Translations under genes and position numbers: made by a program
Source: Bacteroidota bacterium
GTDB lineage: Bacteria > Bacteroidota > Bacteroidia > Flavobacteriales_D > Sanyastnellaceae
Direction of reading: 5' to 3'
NCBI GenBank assembly: GCA_027619225.1
Contig: JAQCFW010000008.1
Coordinates: forward strand, 1-64,000
Length of the DNA: 64,000 bases
Part shown: piece after piece, positions 9,174 to 19,042 of the stretch
Position numbering within the stretch: position 1 is the first letter of the stretch
How the letters are laid out: each line of letters begins with the position of its first letter
Notes under the pieces: model-generated
What the model was told of the DNA's origin: nothing
The model's input: the letters and a program-made list of their open reading frames with translations, nothing else
The model's database searches: none

Positions 9174-9614
9174 TTAATCTCCTTGTAAATTCTTATTCTC
9201 CTTGAACACCAACTTCAACTCTTCAGAAATTCCACCTTCACTTCTTCGAGCCACCCTTTTCAACTTTCTCAAAATACGTTCTTCGTTGAAATCTAAACCC
9301 TGTAATTGTTCAAGTGCCATAATTTGAATAAGCGTGCCTTGTAACATTGGCTCAGATGTAAAAACTGGCCACTCCTCCGTGTCTATCTCTACCCTAATCT
9401 TATCACTCTCTGCAATCCATTCTAAAGTCCAAGCATCTATTGCCGGTATATACTCCTCACAGGCCCCAGCTCCTCTATCTAGTCTCCACTCTAAAGCATC
9501 TTCCACCCACTCTCGTGTCGCCAATCCGTTTTCTGGCCAATCCGGTGCGCCCCCACAAACGAGGCAAGCAAAACACCACCAGGGCGTTATCGATATAGCA
9601 GAAAACATCATCAT
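9174..9614 (-). CDS. Hypothetical small secreted protein
   Basis: Not recognised. A 146-residue protein that begins with a short hydrophobic stretch (MFSAISITPWWCFACLVCGG), either a weak signal peptide or a membrane anchor with two cysteines. The rest is acidic and rich in Trp and Glu (NGLATREWVEDALEWRLDRG, then VEIDTEEWPVF), ending in a charged helix (EERILRKLKRVARR). The start codon region overlaps the stop of the saccharopine dehydrogenase gene by one base, so the two are probably co-transcribed. Translated codons look normal for the genome, but I see no domain. Confidence 0.6.
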   Translation of the reverse strand: MMMFSAISITPWWCFACLVCGGAPDWPENGLATREWVEDALEWRLDRGAGACEEYIPAIDAWTLEWIAESDKIRVEIDTEEWPVFTSEPMLQGTLIQIMALEQLQGLDFNEERILRKLKRVARRSEGGISEELKLVFKENKNLQGD

Positions 9615-10951
9615 TATAGTTCTATTTGAGACTCTTTAAATACCACCCCAAATTCCTCTAATTTAGGAAGAACCACATCATAGTAGTTAGGTGTTACTGG
9701 AATTTGTACCCCCACACTCCCGAATCCTCCACCTACCATCATATGTTCCGCTGCAATTGCCATAGGTAAACCTACGGTGTCAGACATCGCTGTATACATA
9801 GAGTCACGACCTTCTAAGAAAAACTCAGAAGTTCTAGCGTATCGTTTGCCGTCTTTCTCAAACTCGAATCTATGCCACATCACAATCATATCCCTATCTC
9901 CATCCTCTAGGGCCCACTTTTTCACAAGGAGTGCCTCGATTATTTCTGCAGGTGTTCCTTCTGTAATTTCAGGACCCACTTCCGTGTCGAAAAGCCCTAA
10001 CCACTCTAACCGTTCGTTCGTTTCGTGGTCGCTTATCACAGTTGCATTAATGGCTTCTGAAACCGTCATTCCCGCAGTTTTAGAAGGTAAAAACGATCTC
10101 GTCCACTCACTCCATGATATACCTTTAGACCAAACCAGCTTCGCATCATCCCTCACCATACCTAGCTGAACTAAAATATCCCACGACCTACAAAACCCAT
10201 CCACTCTCAGAGTTCCTCTGATCAAGGTCTCCATATCAGGTAGATTGTAAATCTCTTCGTATGTAAGAGAGTCACGATTGGGATAACCTTTAAAGAGCTG
10301 ACCCTCAACCTCAATCGCCCTAAGTCTGCGAAACACTCTGTGCGGAGGTACGAGTTTCACTCTCCCTGCATCCTTAAAGGTTGCTGAACCACCCTGACCA
10401 GCAAGCACAATGTTCCTCGGGTTCCACGAAATCTTGTAATGCCAAGGGTTGTTGTCCGACTCCTCAGCGACAAGGCCACCACAATACGATTCAAATCCCT
10501 TCATTACTCCCCCCTCAGACTTAATCTCATCTATAACCTTCATGGCACTCATGTGATCAATCCCAGGGTCAAGACCTATCTCATTCAGAACGAGAACACC
10601 AGCCTCCTTAGCGGCTTCATCAAGGGACTTCATCTCATCGCTCAAATAACTAGGAGTAATCACAGGCACTCCAGCAGCAATAGCAACTTTAGCAACACTA
10701 GCATGCAAAAAGGCTGGCACCATACTCATCACAAGATCTGCCTCACCTATCCTCTTATCTCTCTCAATATTATCGAGTGCAGACAATTGAAAAGCTTCTC
10801 CTATCTCATGACCGCTCACTTTTTGTTGAGCTACAGACAGATCAATATCTCCAACAACTACCTTCCAACCACACGCCTCAGACCTGTCTAAAAGTCTCTT
10901 GATTAATGTACTACAAGACCTTCCTGCTCCTAAAACTAAAATAGACTTCAT
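9614..10951 (-). CDS. Saccharopine dehydrogenase family oxidoreductase
   Basis: A 445-residue NAD(P)-dependent enzyme of the saccharopine dehydrogenase/reductase (Lys9-like) family. The Rossmann nucleotide-binding motif is at the very N terminus (ILVLGAGRSCSTLIKRLL), followed by the family stretch ending NEIGLDPGIDHMSAMKVID (about 140-160) and FESYCGGL. It probably acts in lysine breakdown by the saccharopine route or a related amino-acid conversion; no partner lysine gene is nearby, so the exact reaction is inferred. It is transcribed away from the lipoprotein operon, and the 112-bp gap between them holds a 10-bp inverted repeat. Confidence 0.85.
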   Translation of the reverse strand: MKSILVLGAGRSCSTLIKRLLDRSEACGWKVVVGDIDLSVAQQKVSGHEIGEAFQLSALDNIERDKRIGEADLVMSMVPAFLHASVAKVAIAAGVPVITPSYLSDEMKSLDEAAKEAGVLVLNEIGLDPGIDHMSAMKVIDEIKSEGGVMKGFESYCGGLVAEESDNNPWHYKISWNPRNIVLAGQGGSATFKDAGRVKLVPPHRVFRRLRAIEVEGQLFKGYPNRDSLTYEEIYNLPDMETLIRGTLRVDGFCRSWDILVQLGMVRDDAKLVWSKGISWSEWTRSFLPSKTAGMTVSEAINATVISDHETNERLEWLGLFDTEVGPEITEGTPAEIIEALLVKKWALEDGDRDMIVMWHRFEFEKDGKRYARTSEFFLEGRDSMYTAMSDTVGLPMAIAAEHMMVGGGFGSVGVQIPVTPNYYDVVLPKLEEFGVVFKESQIEL

Positions 10952-10980
10952 CTAAACTTTAATTATAAATATTTAACTCA

Positions 10981-11046
10981 GCAAGATATGGCACGCAAAT
11001 TGTTTTCACCCAAAATCAATACAAAACCTACAAAAGCATATCTTGC
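10981..11046. promoter_or_regulatory. Divergent control region with a 10-bp perfect inverted repeat
   Basis: GCAAGATATG at 10981-10990 and its exact complement CATATCTTGC at 11037-11046 flank the gap between the minus-strand saccharopine dehydrogenase and the plus-strand lipoprotein operon. Each arm reads TATCTTGC outward, two bases from TAnnTTTG, so the arms could be a mirrored pair of -7 boxes or operator half-sites. 46 bp separates the arms. Confidence 0.35.
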
Positions 11047-11063
11047 AAGTGAAATTAGCCGAG

Positions 11064-12449
11064 ATGAAAAATTTTATTTCCCCTTTTATAATAATACTTA
11101 CTGCTATTACCCTTAGCGCTTCATTAAATAGCTGTAAAGGAGCTAAGGCATACGTCAAGCGTGGAGCTAAGATGGAAGCCGCCGGAATGATAGACCAAGC
11201 CGCAGACTTTTACTCCACTGCTCTCAAGAAAAAACCAGCAAACTTAGATGCTCTATCTGGTCTCAATCGTACAGGCCAAATAATACTATCCCGACACCTC
11301 GCTTTATTCGAAGAAGCTATCCTAGGCAGCGAAAAGGATTCAGCAATTCGAAACTTCAAGAATGCCGAATCATTCTATGACAAGGTACACGCTTTAGGTG
11401 TAACTCTCAACTTTCCTGACTCAAAAAAAGCCCAATACGAAGCTGTGAAAAACGACCATGTTAAAGATCTTTACACGATTGCGACCTCGCACCTTGAAAA
11501 GTTAGAATACAACCAGGCTCTCAAACTGTTAGAGGAAATTACATCTCTCGTACCTGGCTTTAAAGATGCCGCCTCACTTGCTGATTACGCCTTTTGCACA
11601 CCAGCTTACGATTTAGCGATGACTTCAATGGACGATAAACTATTTCGTTCTGCATATGAAGGTTTCTCAGATGTAGTTAACCGCGATGCAACATTTAGAG
11701 ACGCTTCTGAAAGACGTGACGAAACTCTAGAACTAGGACGCTTCACGATTGCTCTTATGTCTTTCAAGAACGGTTCTAACAGACGTAATATCAGTACTAA
11801 GCTTAGCTCTTATGTAGAACAAAACCTCATGGGGTCTAACGACCCTTTCCTTGTTGTTGTAGATCGAGAATCGATTGACTTAATACTTCAAGAACAACAA
11901 CTAGAGCTCAGTGGACTTACATCTGGAGCAGAACTAGAAATAGGTTCACTACTTGGTGTTAAGGCGATGTTAAAGGGGACTGTCACAGAATGTTCTGTCT
12001 CAACAACGCCTCTCCGACACGAAAACAAACGCGGATACGAAAAATATAGAGTAGAAACTATCGATTCCGAGGGGGAAAAGCATTACGAAACGAAATATCG
12101 CTCCGTTGGATACACTGAATTTTACCAATCCTCTGAGGTTACAATGTCATTCACCCTCAAGCTCGTTTCAATGGAAACAGGAGCTATATTATCTAGCAAA
12201 ACAATGGAATCTTACTCTTCAGACGAGGTTCGATACTTAAAATACGGAGGTAATGCTAGAATGCTTTACCCCGCAAAATCTAATGGGTCAGTTAACGGTT
12301 CAAGTAGCGGACATAATATACTTCTAGGTCTAATTGGAGAAAGAGAAGATTTAAAAAACGACAATATCATGATTGATGATATCACCCAGAATTTAGCCGC
12401 AAAAATCCAACTCGAAATAGAGAGAATCATTCAAGAACAAGTAAGGTAA
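11064..12449 (+). CDS. TPR and CsgG-like outer-membrane lipoprotein
   Basis: A 461-residue lipoprotein (starting at ATG 11064; an in-frame TTG at 11043 would add seven residues ahead of the signal). The signal peptide ends in the lipobox SLNSC. Residues ~25-200 look like TPR or helical-repeat segments (EAAGMIDQAADFYSTALKKK, YNQALKLLEEI). From about 225 the protein resembles CsgG: LGRFTIALMSFKNG, VVDRESIDLILQEQQLELSG and LLGVKAMLKGTVTE. CsgG forms the outer-membrane pore for curli subunits; relatives such as FlgT/HfaB have structural roles. First gene of a three-lipoprotein operon. Pore formation is not proven by the sequence. Confidence 0.8.
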   Translation: MKNFISPFIIILTAITLSASLNSCKGAKAYVKRGAKMEAAGMIDQAADFYSTALKKKPANLDALSGLNRTGQIILSRHLALFEEAILGSEKDSAIRNFKNAESFYDKVHALGVTLNFPDSKKAQYEAVKNDHVKDLYTIATSHLEKLEYNQALKLLEEITSLVPGFKDAASLADYAFCTPAYDLAMTSMDDKLFRSAYEGFSDVVNRDATFRDASERRDETLELGRFTIALMSFKNGSNRRNISTKLSSYVEQNLMGSNDPFLVVVDRESIDLILQEQQLELSGLTSGAELEIGSLLGVKAMLKGTVTECSVSTTPLRHENKRGYEKYRVETIDSEGEKHYETKYRSVGYTEFYQSSEVTMSFTLKLVSMETGAILSSKTMESYSSDEVRYLKYGGNARMLYPAKSNGSVNGSSSGHNILLGLIGEREDLKNDNIMIDDITQNLAAKIQLEIERIIQEQVR

Positions 12450-12460
12450 AGTAAAGGAAT

Positions 12461-13843
12461 TTGAAGCAACGACTACACTCCATCAGCATACTAATTTTTG
12501 GCTCTTTTATTATCTTGGGGTTAGAAGGTTGTGCGAGCTTAAGTAAGGTGGATATGGAAAAACCTGTTTGGGCTACAGAAAGACCTATAAACTCAAGTTA
12601 CTATATAGGAATCGCAGGTGTTTCTAAAGAAGAATTTCCATATAATGCTTCAGAAATTGCAAGAGAAAACGCGCTCAACTCGCTTGCTAGAGAAATTCGA
12701 GTTAAGGTCTCATCTTCATCATTATTATCAACCCTTCAAGTAAACAGTTGGGTCGAGGAGAGTTTCATTTCAAACATAGAATCCACAGTTGTTGAAGATT
12801 TAGAGGGATTTAATTTAATAGACTCGTATGAGAGCCCTACGGAAGTCTTTGTCTACTACAGACTCTCTAAATCTGAGTACGCAAGGATTTTAGCTGAACG
12901 TAAACACGTTGTTTTGGGATCAGCATACGGACATTACTTAGATGCCGAAAGGAAAATCTCTGAAGGAGCAATTTCTGGAGCAATCGAGAGGTATTTAATG
13001 GGGCTTGACGTCATGAGTAAATACCTCGGAGAATTAAATCCTTATACGGGTGAAGATGGGATCCCTTTCGATCTAGATCGGGCATTACTAAATGGAATGT
13101 CAGATGCCATAAGCGGACTTGTATTGTTACACGAAAAAGAAGAAATTAAGCTTTTACTTAATAACAGGTATACTGACAAAGTATCTATCTCATCATTTTT
13201 CAACAACAATAGCGTTTTTGGAATTCCTTTAAAATATTCATACAACAGAGGAGCAATACCCGTTAGAGGTACCACAAAAACTTCTGGAAATGGAATTGCA
13301 GAAATCCCCCTTAACGGATTCACTCCAGGGATATCGCAAAGCGAACTTATCGTTGATGTGGACATTTTATCATTTTCAAAAGTCCTCAATTTGCTTAGTC
13401 CGCTCGGTCCACTACTTGAAGGTATAACATCTACACCTTTAAGGATTCCAATTGTCCTTGAGCGGCCTAAAGTTTTTGTTGTGGGTACTGAAAAAATGTT
13501 CCAAAAAACGATTTCTCAAGGAGAATTAATTCCAGCGCTAAGAGCGGCATTAATAGAAGAGGGAGTAGAGGTTATAGACCACGCTACTTCAAAAGCACTA
13601 ACTCTAACTGTTAATGCCGATACACAGGCTGGAGGTGAAGGTTCTGGCTTTTTTACTGCATATCTTAATGCTACATTAGAGCTCACAGACGAAAATGGAA
13701 AGCTCATCATGCAAAAAAACCTTGAGCGAATTAAAGGCGTTCAATTAGATAGGATAAAAGCAGGACAAGATGCGTACAGAAAGGCTGCTATTGAAATAAA
13801 AGGTAGATTTACAAGTAAATTTGTTGGTGCGCTATATGAATAG
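12461..13843 (+). CDS. LPP20-family lipoprotein, long form
   Basis: A 460-residue lipoprotein with a TTG start preceded by AAAGGA, one of the few possible ribosome-binding sites in the window. The lipobox is LEGC. Residues ~30-145 form an LPP20-like domain (PVWATERPINSSYYIGIAGVS, then ENALNSLAREIRVKVSSSS), and the rest has no recognised family: a segment with an Ig/carboxypeptidase-regulatory look (GTTKTSGNGIAEIPLNGFTPG) and a C-terminal part that may resemble FlgT or LptE-like folds (ALRAALIEEGVEVIDH). It begins 11 nt after the CsgG-like gene. Function unknown. Confidence 0.72.
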   Translation: MKQRLHSISILIFGSFIILGLEGCASLSKVDMEKPVWATERPINSSYYIGIAGVSKEEFPYNASEIARENALNSLAREIRVKVSSSSLLSTLQVNSWVEESFISNIESTVVEDLEGFNLIDSYESPTEVFVYYRLSKSEYARILAERKHVVLGSAYGHYLDAERKISEGAISGAIERYLMGLDVMSKYLGELNPYTGEDGIPFDLDRALLNGMSDAISGLVLLHEKEEIKLLLNNRYTDKVSISSFFNNNSVFGIPLKYSYNRGAIPVRGTTKTSGNGIAEIPLNGFTPGISQSELIVDVDILSFSKVLNLLSPLGPLLEGITSTPLRIPIVLERPKVFVVGTEKMFQKTISQGELIPALRAALIEEGVEVIDHATSKALTLTVNADTQAGGEGSGFFTAYLNATLELTDENGKLIMQKNLERIKGVQLDRIKAGQDAYRKAAIEIKGRFTSKFVGALYE

Positions 13844-13893
13844 ATTGTAGTTTGGCACAGTCTATGTAAAAATATTAAAAAAAAAAGAACATT

Positions 13894-14460
13894 ATGAATA
13901 ATATCAAAACCTTATGTGTCGCAGCTTCTGCGGTCATCTTTAGCCTTGCAGGTTGCAAAGGAAACCAAGCAATTACACCTACTCAAAATGGTGAAGTAGA
14001 AATAATAGAGTATTGTACAGGGTCAGAATACAATTCTGACAGCAAGCATTTTAGAGCGACTGCAACAGGTGAGAGCTTAAGCCGTGAAACGGCAAAGAAA
14101 ATGTCTAGGTCAAATGTGGAAAATCGTCTAGCACGATCTATCTCTGCAACACTATCTATCGTTACTGACAACTATGTAAACTCTACAAGTTTTAACAACA
14201 AAGAAGAGGTGACAGAGACATTCAATGACATGGCTCGTACAGTTGTAGAGCAGGAACTCAAAGGAGCTATTATCATCTGCGAAAGACTAACTCAAAAGGT
14301 GGACGGCTCTTTCGTTAGCTACATCGCTATAGAGTTAAGTGGAGAAGGAATCGCACAAGCTTACAATGAAAGACTCGCTAAAGACGAGCGCATCATGGCT
14401 GAATACAACTACGAAAACTTCAAGGAAACTTTTGAAGCGGAGATGAATAAACTGAACTAA
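13894..14460 (+). CDS. LPP20-like lipoprotein, short form
   Basis: A 188-residue lipoprotein with lipobox SLAGC. The mature part resembles the LPP20 domain: FRATATGESLSRETAKKMSR followed by a helix-strand pattern and a C-terminal acidic helix (ENFKETFEAEMNKLN). Third gene in the lipoprotein operon, 50 bp after the long LPP20 gene; the A-rich gap just before the ATG (13876-13893) lacks a clear Shine-Dalgarno. The same helix pattern (repeated Ala/Leu-Arg-Glu before an exposed strand) occurs in the neighbour, suggesting the two LPP20 domains may pair. Confidence 0.7.
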   Translation: MNNIKTLCVAASAVIFSLAGCKGNQAITPTQNGEVEIIEYCTGSEYNSDSKHFRATATGESLSRETAKKMSRSNVENRLARSISATLSIVTDNYVNSTSFNNKEEVTETFNDMARTVVEQELKGAIIICERLTQKVDGSFVSYIAIELSGEGIAQAYNERLAKDERIMAEYNYENFKETFEAEMNKLN

Positions 14461-14470
14461 CCTACACTGA

Positions 14471-15049
14471 CTAAATACTATTCACCCAATTCTTCAACAT
14501 CAATCTCCCGTCAGTGGTGAGTATCGATTCCGGATGGAATTGTAAACCCACAATGGGTCTAGATTTGTGTGAAATAGCGAGGATGATTTTTGTATTACTC
14601 CTCGCAAGCACAGATAAATCAGATGGAAGACTCGCTTCTACAGCACACCAACTGTGGTAATGCCCTACTTCACAACCAGAATGAATGTTTTCGAAAATAT
14701 CACAGGGTTCAACGATTTCCAATACTCCCACTCGACCATGAAGGACTTCATTCATGTTCTCTAACTCTCCTCCAAAATATTCTACAATTGCCTGAAGCCC
14801 TAAACACACCCCTAAGATTGGTTTATCTAATTTAACTGCGGATGCTAACACATCCATTAAACCCGGAGCATCAGAAGGCATACCTGGACCAGGAGATAAC
14901 ACTATTGCATCGAAAGGCTCAAGCACTTTATCAATTTCAATTTTAAGCTCCTCTGGTCTTACAACCACAACATTTGCTCCTGCTCTCTCAAGGTCATGAG
15001 AAAGATTCCATGAGAAAGAATCGTGATTATCGAAGAGTAAAACGTTCAT
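14471..15049 (-). CDS. Glutamine amidotransferase of anthranilate or aminodeoxychorismate synthase
   Basis: A 192-residue class I glutaminase that supplies ammonia to chorismate-using synthases (TrpG for tryptophan or PabA for folate). The catalytic triad is visible: Cys in PILGVCLGLQAI, and His and Glu in LQFHPESILT. The start is ATG 15049 (MNVLLFDNHDSFSWNL), the family's usual beginning; the frame extends 16 residues further without homology. No trpE, pabB or other trp gene is adjacent, so PabA is somewhat more likely than TrpG, but sequence alone does not decide. Divergent from ridA across 52 bp. Confidence 0.9.
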   Translation of the reverse strand: MNVLLFDNHDSFSWNLSHDLERAGANVVVVRPEELKIEIDKVLEPFDAIVLSPGPGMPSDAPGLMDVLASAVKLDKPILGVCLGLQAIVEYFGGELENMNEVLHGRVGVLEIVEPCDIFENIHSGCEVGHYHSWCAVEASLPSDLSVLARSNTKIILAISHKSRPIVGLQFHPESILTTDGRLMLKNWVNSI

Positions 15050-15076
15050 TTTGTAGAAATTGCTGCAAATTAGCGG

Positions 15077-15090
15077 TAAAGATATCTTTA
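15077..15090. promoter_or_regulatory. Palindromic bidirectional -7 element between pabA/trpG and ridA
   Basis: TAAAGATATCTTTA is a perfect 14-bp palindrome that reads TATCTTTA on both strands, each one base from TAnnTTTG. It lies 27 nt from the minus-strand start and 11 nt from the plus-strand start, so a single palindrome could serve both genes. It could equally be a regulator's operator. Confidence 0.4.
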
Positions 15091-15101
15091 AATTCATTTC
15101 A

Positions 15102-15507: not shown

Positions 15508-17928
15508 TTAGAATAAAAACTCACCATTGCCTCCTCTGGCTTCGAATTTAATATCTTTTAAAAGAGGTGATTTTATATTGAGCCTAATCGCAAAACTTTT
15601 CCTTACTCCTATAGGGATCCAATTAAATGTGAGTTCCCAACAATGTAAATCCCAATGGACATTTATAGCAGTTGGCGTAAATTCTTTGTATTTCAAATCG
15701 TAACCCGTAGTGACATCAAATGTCCACTTTGAAAACAGTTTTACACCACCTCTCATAGCTATTCCATGAGTTATAGCAGATGTATCAGATTGCTGTGCCG
15801 TATCAAAATGTTTCGAGAGATTCATGGTGTAATCTAATCGGGTATTCCAGGGGTAACCACCTTCAGTTCCTCCATTGAAGGAAGTCCCCACTGCCGCAGT
15901 TGCTCTTTTGAGTCTAAGCACATCTGCACCTGAACCACTCGACGCTAAGAATGTTGAAACTGTAGCTCCAGTTGCGTCTTGAGCATAAGCTGAGTGTGTC
16001 GAAGTAAAGTTTAAATTCACCTTGTTAAATAAGCTTGTAAAACCTCTTGAAGTGATGTCTGAAAGTTGGAGCGAATCGGCTAAGAAATTGTAGCTCATCG
16101 AAGAAGAAAAGTTGTCAATAATTTTCACCTTCTTTACTTTTTCTAATGATGAATCCCAGATTTTAGCTTCTAAATTTTGACCTAAAGAAAAGTTAACAGC
16201 ACCCGATTCACGAATGTCTGTAGGTGCAAACCGATTGAGCTCCCAAGGGTTCCAAGAAAGCGACTCATCATTTAACACAGCGACTTGAGAACGAGTGCGC
16301 TCAGGGGTGTAGCTCATCGAAATACTTGGAGACAAGACGTGTCTCAAGGCTTTTAACCGACGCTTTTCTGCAAAAGTATACATTCCATAAAATCTTGTAT
16401 TTGCACTTAACGAAGCGCTCCAATTCCTGTCTGTCATGATGCCGGAAATTGTATCTATCTGCTCCATTAAATTACCTTCGATATCATATAAGAGTGATTT
16501 AGACAGCTCCGCAAAACCCATAAATTCATCATACTGAAATGATGGAGCAAAGGTGATAAAACCGATTGAACCACTCGAGGAAGCAGAAATACTATGCTTA
16601 AGGCCGCTCTTAATTTCCATAGACGAAAAATCTAGAGAGGCAAGAGAGGAGTCGGCGATTTGGGCTACATTTTCGAAACGAGAGTTATAGCTCATGGAAA
16701 TTCCATCTAACACCTTACTCGTTCCTTTATCTAAATTTAATATATCACTTATAGACCTACGACTCATCGTAAGAGTTGCAGAGGGTAAAGTCATGGACAC
16801 ATTGCCAGTAAGTGAGTTTTGTGAATGTCTGGCGCTTGTTGTAAGAGAGAAAGGAGATCTAGGAGCTGTGTAACTCCATTGTAAACTGGACTGGAAAGTG
16901 TTCGAAAGGAAATCTTCCATACTGGAATTTAGGTTTTCTTGGAATATGTCTGAAGATCCGAAATTTAGAGATGCCGAAAATCTTTGGTTGGGTCTTGACC
17001 TTGGGTCTTGTGTATGAGTCCACCTCACGAAGAAGTTGTTTTCTTTTGCAAATCCTGGTAAACCTTCAAACCCGGACTTCCTTTTGTTGTAGCTAAGCGT
17101 AAAATTTCCGTTAGATTTATACCTGTAATTGTATTGTGACACATTCTTCATAGCCCATGTACCACCTGAGTATAGATCGAAAAGCAGTCTTGTATCCCAA
17201 TGCTCTCCCAAGGGTAAATAGTATCCCAAATCCTTGAGGAAAAAACCCAACGTGCCACCATCTCCGTAACTAGGAAGAAGGAGTCCATGCGATCTCTTTT
17301 CTTGATTTAAAGGAAACCATGCGAAGGGCAGAGCAAGTGGTGTGGGTATTTTCCTGAATTTCATATATAGCGGTCCGGAGATTACTTTTTCGTCTGGGTA
17401 GAGAATCGCGCGCGATAAATGGAAATGGAAATGTGGGTTGTCTGCGTTACATGTTGTGAACTTTCCATCTTGAACATGGATTGCATCTCCAGGCAGGCGT
17501 TTAGAATTTTCTGCATGAAAAACCAGTTCTCCTTCAGTGGTTACAGCGTGATGACTAAATCCTTTTTCTGTATTGAAGTTGTAGCACAACTGATCTTGGG
17601 TGAAAACTGATGAACCCTGTTTAAAAACTGGTCGACCTGTCCAATTTCCCAGTGAATCTTTCGTTCCAAATGCACAAGCTTCTCTTATATCAGTCTTGTA
17701 AACCACCCTGTCAGCCGTCAACTCAACATCTCCACTCTTAATAATCACATCCCCAAACAACAATACCAGGTTGCTATCCACGATCATAACGATGCTATCT
17801 GAAGCAGAATATGTCATGGATTCATCCTGTCCCAACAAGGTCTCATTTTTCAACACAAGAATCAGGAAAAGGAAGAACATTCCTAACCTATATCCACGTG
17901 TATTTCCTTTAATTTCGGGGTAAGCCAT
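15508..17928 (-). CDS. lptD: LPS assembly outer-membrane protein LptD
   Basis: An 806-residue protein (start ATG 17928) that places LPS in the outer leaflet of the outer membrane. A basic N terminus and a hydrophobic signal (GMFFLFLILVL) lead to an OstA/LptA-like beta-jellyroll at about 40-140 (GDVIIKSGDVELTADRVVYK, AFGTKDSLGNW). The remaining ~600 residues are a beta-barrel rich in alternating aromatic strands, ending in the outer-membrane-type strand EARGGNGEFLF. Its start overlaps that of the divergent amidase gene in a CATG. A second start at 17880 would remove the basic n-region. A -7 box lies 20 nt upstream. Confidence 0.9.
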   Translation of the reverse strand: MAYPEIKGNTRGYRLGMFFLFLILVLKNETLLGQDESMTYSASDSIVMIVDSNLVLLFGDVIIKSGDVELTADRVVYKTDIREACAFGTKDSLGNWTGRPVFKQGSSVFTQDQLCYNFNTEKGFSHHAVTTEGELVFHAENSKRLPGDAIHVQDGKFTTCNADNPHFHFHLSRAILYPDEKVISGPLYMKFRKIPTPLALPFAWFPLNQEKRSHGLLLPSYGDGGTLGFFLKDLGYYLPLGEHWDTRLLFDLYSGGTWAMKNVSQYNYRYKSNGNFTLSYNKRKSGFEGLPGFAKENNFFVRWTHTQDPRSRPNQRFSASLNFGSSDIFQENLNSSMEDFLSNTFQSSLQWSYTAPRSPFSLTTSARHSQNSLTGNVSMTLPSATLTMSRRSISDILNLDKGTSKVLDGISMSYNSRFENVAQIADSSLASLDFSSMEIKSGLKHSISASSSGSIGFITFAPSFQYDEFMGFAELSKSLLYDIEGNLMEQIDTISGIMTDRNWSASLSANTRFYGMYTFAEKRRLKALRHVLSPSISMSYTPERTRSQVAVLNDESLSWNPWELNRFAPTDIRESGAVNFSLGQNLEAKIWDSSLEKVKKVKIIDNFSSSMSYNFLADSLQLSDITSRGFTSLFNKVNLNFTSTHSAYAQDATGATVSTFLASSGSGADVLRLKRATAAVGTSFNGGTEGGYPWNTRLDYTMNLSKHFDTAQQSDTSAITHGIAMRGGVKLFSKWTFDVTTGYDLKYKEFTPTAINVHWDLHCWELTFNWIPIGVRKSFAIRLNIKSPLLKDIKFEARGGNGEFLF
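17910..17917 (+). promoter_or_regulatory. Possible -7 box for the amidase operon
   Basis: TAATTTCG on the plus strand, one base from TAnnTTTG, ends 9 nt before the amidase ATG. It lies inside the first codons of lptD, so the two promoters face each other. A very short 5' leader is predicted. Confidence 0.35.
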
Positions 17929-19042
17929 GAAGCATCTAAAACAACACTCAAAGCTACTTAAACCCGCGGCTCTTGCGTTAGCAATTGTCGCAGTTTTTGC
18001 AATCGCAGCTTTTACACCCATTAAACCAACTATGGTAGTGGTTATTGATGCGGGCCATGGGGGGAAAGATCCCGGAAATCTAGGCACAGGTAGATATTCT
18101 TCGACTGAAAAAGACATTACGTTAGCTGTATCAAATAAACTTGCGGCTTATATCGGTGAAAAGATGCCCGATGTGAAAGTGATCCTAACAAGAAAAGACG
18201 ATTCATTCCCCAAACTCTCAACACGAGTAAAAATTGCGAACAACTCGGAGGCTGATGTTTTTATCTCCATTCATTGCGACGCATTTTCATCCTCCACTGC
18301 CCTTGGAAGTGGCACTTATGTAATGGGCATGCATAAAACTGAAGCCAGTCTTAAAAGTGCTATGCGAGAGAACGCTAGTATTTACAAAGAGGACAATTAT
18401 GAGGAAGATTACGCGGGGTTTGACCCGAATGACCCGGACACATACATTGCTCTTTCTTTGCGCCAAAATATTTTTTTAGACAACTCTCTCTTACTCGGGT
18501 CACTCATTCAAAATCAATTTCGTGAAAGAGTTGGAAGAAAAGACAGGGGGGTGAGACAAGCAGGATACTACGTGATTTCCTTCACCACTATGCCAAGCGT
18601 TCTTGTAGAACTTGGATTTTTAACCAACCCAGATGAGGAGGAGTTCTTAATCAGCATAGAGGGCCAAGAATATATGGCCTCTGCTCTATACCGAGCCTTG
18701 AGAGATTACCGCGTCGCTCAGGGTTTAGGAACAGGGCTTGTTGAGGAGATTGTAGATCCAAATAACAACGACGAAGTAACTGATGGAGTGTGGTTTAAAG
18801 TGCAGATAGCATCTTCCCCCACTCAACTTGAGAAATCCGCTTCAGTTTTTAGAGGTCTTCACGACGTGGACATGTATCTTAGTGGTGATTTATATAAATA
18901 CACAGTAGGAAAATTTAGACGAACTGAAGAAGCTCACAATAAAAAACGAGAACTGCGAGAGCAAGGTTTTAACGGAGCTTTTGTAACAGCTTTCAAAAAC
19001 GGATCTCGAGTCCCGATGTCTAGTGTAAGCCCTGAAAATTAA
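17927..19042 (+). CDS. N-acetylmuramoyl-L-alanine amidase with SPOR-like domain
   Basis: A 371-residue periplasmic Zn amidase (amidase_3, AmiC type) that cuts the bond between MurNAc and the stem peptide. After a signal peptide (ALALAIVAVFAIAAF) the Zn-binding VVIDAGHGGKDPG begins at about residue 37, with further family motifs ISIHCDAF and VLVELGFLTNPDEEEFL. Residues ~290-365 resemble a SPOR domain (WFKVQIASSPTQLEKSASVF), which would target septal denuded glycan. Its start codon overlaps that of lptD by 2 bp on opposite strands. It heads the operon with the MlaD-like gene. Confidence 0.93.
   Translation: MKHLKQHSKLLKPAALALAIVAVFAIAAFTPIKPTMVVVIDAGHGGKDPGNLGTGRYSSTEKDITLAVSNKLAAYIGEKMPDVKVILTRKDDSFPKLSTRVKIANNSEADVFISIHCDAFSSSTALGSGTYVMGMHKTEASLKSAMRENASIYKEDNYEEDYAGFDPNDPDTYIALSLRQNIFLDNSLLLGSLIQNQFRERVGRKDRGVRQAGYYVISFTTMPSVLVELGFLTNPDEEEFLISIEGQEYMASALYRALRDYRVAQGLGTGLVEEIVDPNNNDEVTDGVWFKVQIASSPTQLEKSASVFRGLHDVDMYLSGDLYKYTVGKFRRTEEAHNKKRELREQGFNGAFVTAFKNGSRVPMSSVSPEN
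17949..17956 (-). promoter_or_regulatory. -7 box of lptD
   Basis: TAGCTTTG on the minus strand matches the TAnnTTTG consensus exactly and ends 20 nt before the lptD ATG at 17928, which supports that start over the one at 17880. It lies inside the amidase coding region. Confidence 0.5.

Follow-up and report, generated by a model that had tools for sequence, protein, structure and literature searches.

A co-inherited trio of CsgG- and LPP20-type lipoprotein genes in Flavobacteriales, with a possible role in envelope upkeep

Introduction

What would a row of lipoprotein genes of the CsgG and LPP20 types do in a bacterium that lacks the flagellar and curli markers looked for? The question is raised by a stretch of 64,000 nucleotides (the window; GenBank assembly GCA_027619225.1, contig JAQCFW010000008.1, positions 1 to 64,000) from a Bacteroidota bacterium of the family Sanyastnellaceae. 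The window lies on contig C32 of a 2.03-Mb genome, 97% complete, and carries three consecutive genes, here called p1, p2 and p3 (Table 1), which an original prediction from the sequence alone had read as a possible outer-membrane ring or secretion conduit of a new kind. Here we show that the trio is kept together and co-inherited in the order, and that a comparable set of lipoproteins occurs elsewhere in the phylum. Our tentative view is that a wider lipoprotein module of LpoB/CsgG, TPR and LPP20 proteins takes a particular form in Flavobacteriales, represented by the trio, and that its most likely task is the upkeep of peptidoglycan and outer membrane.

Results

The three genes form one co-inherited row

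The trio is encoded on the plus strand with gaps of 11 and 50 bp between the genes; for p1, an alternative start (TTG at 11043) is also open. Upstream lies a divergent open reading frame (ORF; 9614-10951, minus strand) and downstream a convergent one (14471-15097, minus strand), and p1-p2-p3 is therefore an isolated unit. The lipobox cysteine is invariant in the aligned rows of p2 (32/32) and p3 (30/30), as it is in those of p1, and the window lipoboxes LNSC (p1) and LEGC (p2) are unusual at position -2. A row of three lipoprotein genes with lipoboxes, as originally described, was thus confirmed.

Among 150 genomes of the order, strong matches to p1, p2 and p3 were found in 63, 63 and 64 genomes, respectively, with a union of 65. 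All three genes were present in 62 of these 65, and in 60 they were contiguous and in order, contiguity in about 30 genomes being part of the selection, as the alignments were drawn partly from loci fetched around p1. A strong match was one per genome, picked by hand (E <= 5.3e-85 for p1, <= 8.7e-63 for p2 and <= 9.9e-37 for p3), and second paralogs, fragments and weak matches were left out; before that selection, 83, 63 and 65 of the 150 genomes matched at E <= 0.001. One genome (G127) has all three genes, but p2 sits at the end of one contig and p3 at the end of a second; another (G062) has all three, with p3 on another contig in another setting. In G086, which is without a strong p1, p3 precedes p2, and G137 and G097 have one trio gene each. 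The contiguity kept in 60 of 65 genomes shows that this is no chance row, and the nearly constant presence or absence of the three genes together argues for one function. Their co-occurrence in related genomes was thereby borne out.

In a set of 60 genomes, the present one included, p1 was matched in 45, and p2 followed p1 in 29 of the 30 loci obtained; the sole locus without it (L029) stops at a contig edge. When the p3 profile was run phylum-wide, 17 of 198 genomes matched, five of them strongly. In three genomes of family f19 (L097-L099), p2 adjoins p3 with no p1 beside it.

The domain content agrees with the original labels for p1 and p2. Pfam CsgG (PF03783) matched p1 at 3.2e-10 (40.1 bits, above the cut-off of 20.8) and all 30 aligned p1 homologues at E <= 0.01, and p1 is the sole CsgG match at E <= 0.001 in its own genome. 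TPR_2 matched the N-terminal part of p1 slightly below the cut-off (1.5e-05, 25.2 bits against 27). Pfam LPP20 (PF02169) matched p2 above the cut-off (4.6e-07, 30.6 bits against 25.9) and was found in all 32 aligned p2 homologues; the p2 family profile also matched Helicobacter pylori HP1454 (4kzs; E 6.4e-4), a protein with an LPP20 domain, the match being confined to the LPP20 stretch. For p3 the label has to be softened, its LPP20 match falling below the cut-off (0.17, 12.8 bits against 25.9). LPP20 was found in 24 of 30 p3 homologues at E <= 1 (best 0.0017), and the p3 profile matched the p2 profile in hhalign (91.6%, E 8.1e-07), as compared to E 1.1e-4 to 3.4e-3 for pairs of profiles with no expected kinship. 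As judged from these comparisons, p3 is LPP20-like rather than a Pfam LPP20 member. No solved structure matched the p3 profile at E <= 1. With a mean column identity of 58%, as compared to 51% for p1 and 41% for p2 over slightly different sets of rows, p3 is the most conserved of the three.

A comparable lipoprotein set occurs elsewhere in the phylum

An LPP20 search of the phylum matched 24 of 148 genomes in 35 rows. From these, 26 new loci of 18 genomes outside the order were compared with 14 control stretches lying 70-100 kb off on the same contigs; of the nine other rows, two lie in the order and seven in or near loci obtained earlier (L098, L099, L100 twice, L101 twice and L103). LpoB was found at 12 of the 26 loci, a TPR-like lipoprotein at 11 and both at 10, as against none in the controls (Fisher one-sided, 0.0017 for LpoB and 0.0033 for the TPR-like gene). 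The TPR-like partner is a lipoprotein of about 440-520 aa with no clear solved relative, and every row of the LpoB and TPR-like alignments from outside the order keeps the lipobox cysteine.

LpoB, TPR-like and long LPP20 genes come together at L101, L113, L115, L119, L121, L124, L125, L126, L129, L130 and L137, and a short LPP20 gene is close by in four of these 11 loci (L101, L115, L124 and L126). The row at L101 consists of LpoB (3.1e-33), the TPR-like gene, long LPP20, short LPP20 and an MltC-like transglycosylase. Within L100-L104, chosen via p3 matches, LpoB was found in one of the five (L101) and in none of the other four; the LpoB scan did not include L098 and L099. At L133 and L134, LpoB stands between long and short p3-like LPP20 genes, and at L123 a p2-like gene, itself with an Ig-like match, is immediately preceded by the gene of a 206-aa protein that matches CsgG (1e-10) as well as LpoB (3.5e-6).

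The p2 profile aligned with that of the long LPP20 partner over columns 11-451 (hhalign 97.4%, E 1.4e-11, 12% identity). The match covers the LPP20 and C-terminal parts, leaves the middle mostly unaligned and is far beyond that of unrelated pairs; at the level of sequence profiles, p2 is shown to be related to the long LPP20 protein encoded in LpoB operons. The p3 profile also matched this partner (E 3.8e-07). Pfam LPP20 was matched by 13 of 14 long partners scanned, and none of the 14 had an Ig-like match at E <= 0.01. The partner profile from outside the order matched H. pylori Lpp20 (5ok8; 0.0012), likewise an LPP20-domain protein, whereas the p2 profile did not. These loci resemble the trio in being short rows of lipoprotein genes with a long LPP20 partner that matches p2 at both ends, but differ in that LpoB and the TPR-like protein are encoded by separate genes, the order is variable and the LPP20 partner has no Ig-like match.

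A related set has been described in flagellated bacteria; the papers are cited from excerpts of their text here and below. Helicobacter cells that have lost the TPR lipoprotein HP0018 hypervesiculate and are less helical, both AmiA and MltD were co-precipitated with HP0018, and its gene sits with an LpoB homologue gene in many enterohepatic species (PMC11394524). On grounds of synteny, the authors tie HP0018 to HP1457, which is homologous to LpoB and orthologous to Cj0091 (PMC11394524). In Campylobacter jejuni, Cj0089-Cj0091 is a lipoprotein operon in which Cj0089 is a TPR lipoprotein (PMC3100323). By description, both sets resemble the trio in that a TPR lipoprotein is encoded with lipoproteins including an LpoB homologue (PMC3100323, PMC11394524). 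E. coli LpoB is an outer-membrane lipoprotein that penicillin-binding protein (PBP) 1B requires, and it can serve as a tether between outer membrane and peptidoglycan (PMC3060616). Because of this literature, a role in envelope upkeep was considered for the trio. The claim of a new kind of system is weakened by the comparable set elsewhere in the phylum and by the related set published for Campylobacter and Helicobacter (PMC3100323, PMC11394524). An open-access literature search for such an operon in this group returned no paper on it.

Weighing a role in envelope upkeep

Of the 30 p1 homologues, 18 were matched by LpoB at E <= 0.01 (best 9.8e-7). Each of the 17 LpoB matches in the 60 genomes, spread over 15 of them, belongs to p1 or its paralog, so that no stand-alone LpoB was seen there. 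A role of the trio in the upkeep of peptidoglycan and outer membrane appears the most likely one, partly by analogy with the Helicobacter phenotype, and we give the reading as a whole a probability of about 0.43.

Several observations weigh against it. The 26 LPP20 loci are not independent, as they come from 18 genomes, several of them from one genus or genome. Matches to TPR_2 are faint in the partner family (7 of 12 members at E <= 1, best 0.0013), and this weakness of its TPR label lowered our probability from 0.45 to the present value. No lipobox was found in either L123 protein. With LpoB, the window p1 reached only 12.6 bits, as against a cut-off of 22.3. In the search of the 60 genomes, stand-alone copies of LpoB too diverged for Pfam would have escaped. 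The excerpt on E. coli LpoB calls the protein and its PBP docking region restricted to gamma-proteobacteria (PMC3060616). Peptidoglycan hydrolases were not enriched: SLT was found at 1 of 26 and M23 at 0 of 26 LPP20 loci, as compared to 0 and 1 of 14 controls, using single-seed profiles of limited sensitivity. Finally, p1 matched the LpoB profile (E 1.4e-4) and the TPR-like profile (E 0.0021, 13.5%) in hhalign no better than unrelated pairs match each other, and descent of p1 from the LpoB and TPR-like genes is therefore not shown. An origin of p1 by fusion of LpoB-type and TPR-like partners would be attractive, and replacement by a CsgG-type domain is as likely.

Peptidoglycan-hydrolase neighbours (SLT at L100, L101 and L115; M23 at L090) were considered as candidate partners and dropped for want of SLT or M23 enrichment over the controls. 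An amidase profile, again single-seed and of limited sensitivity, found nothing.

A ring around a non-flagellar machine

The chief rival, which we judge somewhat unlikely, is an outer-membrane or periplasmic ring of the type seen in the basal disk of FlgP or the ring of FlgT, surrounding a non-flagellar machine such as that of type IX secretion or gliding. A ring or scaffold is possible and would be compatible with envelope upkeep. CsgG forms rings, and FlgT has a TolB-N-like middle domain. The excerpted literature adds that FlgP forms concentric rings from an SHS2 fold common to Lpp20 and FlgT (PMC12222027).

Structure models of p1 and p2 were built from alignments of 5 and 4 rows, respectively. 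That of p2 was poor overall (predicted local distance difference test score, pLDDT, 49.8; predicted template-modelling score, pTM, 0.31), its C-terminal domain being the best part (pLDDT about 57-75). Foldseek matched this domain to LptE (8h1r, E 1.5e-4), and in VIA-align its matches spanned LptE, CsgG, TraT, HpaA, TolB-N, PelC and FlgT (Z 11.1 to 9.4), among them LptE-type 2r76 (Z 11.1), CsgG 6lqh (Z 10.8) and FlgT 3w1e (Z 9.4; FlgT residues 98-264, 120 residues, 3.5 A). DUF4136 was matched in the same domain in 4 of 32 p2 homologues. A ring would fit the alignment to FlgT and that to 8z5n, an LPHT ring entry (Z 9.3), but LptE and TolB, which are not known as rings, have the fold at equal or higher Z. 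The middle of p2 has weak Ig-like matches, in the window protein (Big_1, 0.28) as in its 32 homologues at E <= 1 (DUF4198 in 7, Big_1 in 5, MG4 in 4 and bMG3 in 2).

GldM was found in 35 of 36 genomes, and type IX or gliding machinery is thus present. However, GldM also occurs where p1 was not found (e.g. G041, G042 and G044), and no recognised gliding gene was seen by eye among the recurrent neighbours of the trio at 33 loci. GldM itself was dropped as a partner, being present with and without the trio. FlgH was found in none of 36 genomes, the present one included, whereas three controls were positive; it was the only flagellar gene searched, and for this marker the originally noted absence of flagellar genes holds. 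The trio thus differs from the Vibrio FlgT/FlgO and Campylobacter FlgP rings, with which it would share the LPP20/SHS2 fold; Pfam FlgT_N was matched by only 1 of 30 p3 homologues, weakly (0.047). According to the excerpt, FlgP and FapH are interaction partners of H. pylori Lpp20 (HP1456), but mutants deleted for Lpp20 did not differ from wild type in flagellar number, motility or bacitracin resistance (PMC11756786). The more specific version, a flagellum-independent machine in which CsgG-type p1 and LPP20-type p2 and p3 form an outer-membrane ring or disk in non-flagellated Bacteroidota, is in our estimate unlikely.

A secretion pore and a surface adhesin

The proposed secretion conduit, a CsgG-like pore with two LPP20 accessory lipoproteins exporting some substrate, fared worse and is very unlikely. 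Like the curli exporter CsgG, p1 is a lipoprotein with a CsgG domain, kept in all aligned homologues, and it has an insert at the site of each of the two membrane hairpins of CsgG. Both inserts exceed their E. coli CsgG counterparts in length and charge, the first with 48 residues, 35% charged, as compared to 26 and 19%, and the second, which extends beyond the CsgG domain match, with 63 residues, 25% charged, as compared to 46 and 17%. The p1 family means are 32% and 26% charged, measured over slightly different stretches than in the window protein. Clean strand alternation showed up in windows of the first insert in 7 of 30 rows and of the second insert in 26 of 30, by a weak test that did not raise CsgG above its own shuffles. 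As evidence for membrane strands, the alternation test was dropped for that reason.

The p1 model, poor throughout (pLDDT 59.5, pTM 0.33), draws long strands at residues 301-394 with low confidence, and CsgG heads its Foldseek list, although at E 5.5e-3 and with nothing below 0.001. The p1 profile matched E. coli CsgG alone weakly (E 0.017, 2.7%) yet collinearly, and solved structures yielded TPR-type and other chains only, with no CsgG. CsgG was likewise not among the 50 rows of the p1 VIA-align list; the 14-3-3 proteins that fill it (residues 23-126) share a helical arrangement and are not read as kin. A CsgG fold in p1 has its support in the Pfam match and the homologues, the model being too poor to settle it. 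In contrast to the curli exporter, p1 has a TPR N-terminal half, and CsgF was found in none of the 36 genomes, with a positive E. coli control. In support of the original reading, the CsgG-like protein is thus without its curli partner as far as CsgF goes, CsgE and curlin not having been searched.

A surface-exposed adhesin or antigen set is highly improbable: although Cj0091, in an operon with the TPR lipoprotein Cj0089, was needed for INT 407 adherence and, unlike Cj0089, affected adherence and colonisation (PMC3100323, as excerpted), the conservation of p3 would be unlike that of a surface antigen, and the four close relatives are metagenome-assembled genomes (three titled Flavobacteriales and one Crocinitomicaceae) whose titles name no host.

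Neighbouring genes, paralogs and related loci

Table 1. Positions of the trio and its parts in the window.
Feature	Position	Strand	Description	Basis
p1	11064..12449	+	TPR-CsgG lipoprotein, 461 aa	ORF call; Pfam
p1 lipobox cysteine C24 (LNSC)	11133..11135	+		invariant, 30/30 rows
p1 CsgG domain, residues 234-387	11763..12224	+	long inserts at CsgG membrane-hairpin sites	Pfam
p2	12461..13843	+	long LPP20 lipoprotein, 460 aa, TTG start	ORF call; Pfam
p2 LPP20 (SHS2-like) domain, residues 35-135	12563..12865	+		Pfam; family profile vs 4kzs
p2 Ig-like middle, about residues 248-292	13202..13336	+		weak Pfam matches
p2 C-terminal LptE / TolB-N / CsgG-like domain, residues 335-460	13463..13840	+		model-based structure matches
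p3	13894..14460	+	short LPP20-like lipoprotein, 188 aa	ORF call; conservation
Presumed (putative) operon promoter stretch	10952..11063	+	intergenic	between divergent ORF and p1

Around the trio, the most frequent neighbours are a divergent gene at 28 of 33 loci, two genes at 21 each, a small gene at 18, and others at 16 and, downstream, 14. We take the divergent gene to be saccharopine-dehydrogenase-like, the two at 21 loci mutL-like and ispH-like, the one at 16 rhomboid-like and the downstream one LptD-like. The order among these neighbours varies, and they are taken as ordinary synteny. In the window itself, a minus-strand and a plus-strand ORF at 15508-19042, presumably LptD-like and amidase-like, respectively, have 191 bases in common at the 5' ends as listed, and a true start further in is likely.

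At 13 of 33 loci (including L050:7250-8245 and L042), a same-strand gene that is not present in the window lies directly upstream of p1; both members scanned have DUF4476 (3.1e-21 and 7.4e-21). Downstream of p3, a common same-strand block that includes small lipoprotein-like ORFs was seen at L046, L050, L054 and L066, and the large secreted-looking protein of this block recurs in six loci.

Paralogs of p1 and p3 were also seen. A second p1 paralog besides the trio copy is present in 10 of 60 genomes; at the five loci read (L055, L058, L059, L061 and L062) it is about 22-27% identical, has no LPP20 genes with it and each time stands beside a gene which we take to be dephospho-CoA-kinase-like. 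In the order, 65 genomes have a p3 match, of which 46 have at least two, and seven paralog loci were read. The present genome carries a second, diverged p3 paralog standing alone on contig C28 (L087:7221-7757), beside what are presumably msrA-like and dapA-like genes. In two genomes of genus g47 (L105:168-3068 and L106:6079-10734), a p3 homologue follows not p1 but a 746-747-aa gene, presumably S46 peptidase-like, and at L106 a p2 homologue comes after p3. At L090:6580-8812, a diverged p3 homologue comes last in one row, the two genes before it encoding an M23 peptidase (9.8e-35) and a 279-aa protein with no Pfam match.

Discussion

On the envelope-upkeep reading, the trio would be one transcription unit for an envelope lipoprotein complex. 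Elsewhere in the phylum the module would consist of separate LpoB-type, TPR-like and long and short LPP20 lipoproteins, whereas p1 would join a TPR part to an LpoB/CsgG-type domain and be followed by p2 as the long and p3 as the short LPP20 partner. We infer that the three genes share one transcript and that their products are sorted to the outer membrane, where all three would be lipid-anchored facing the periplasm and form a complex. In such a complex p2 and p3 may make an LPP20 (FlgP-like) scaffold to which p1 would bind via its TPR region, so that its LpoB/CsgG-type domain is offered to synthases or hydrolases of peptidoglycan. In this way the growth of the wall would be kept in step with the attachment of the outer membrane.

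If the flagellum-independent ring machine were true, it would be a living example of the lipoprotein stock that was recruited for the H/T rings and basal disks of flagella. Most of what is known of LPP20-type proteins comes from flagellar rings and from antigens of Helicobacter. An LPP20 operon kept in genomes without the flagellar marker searched, together with its plausible link to LpoB, suggests an older role of these proteins in the envelope, and the trio offers a small, testable gene set for the coupling of outer membrane and cell wall in this group.

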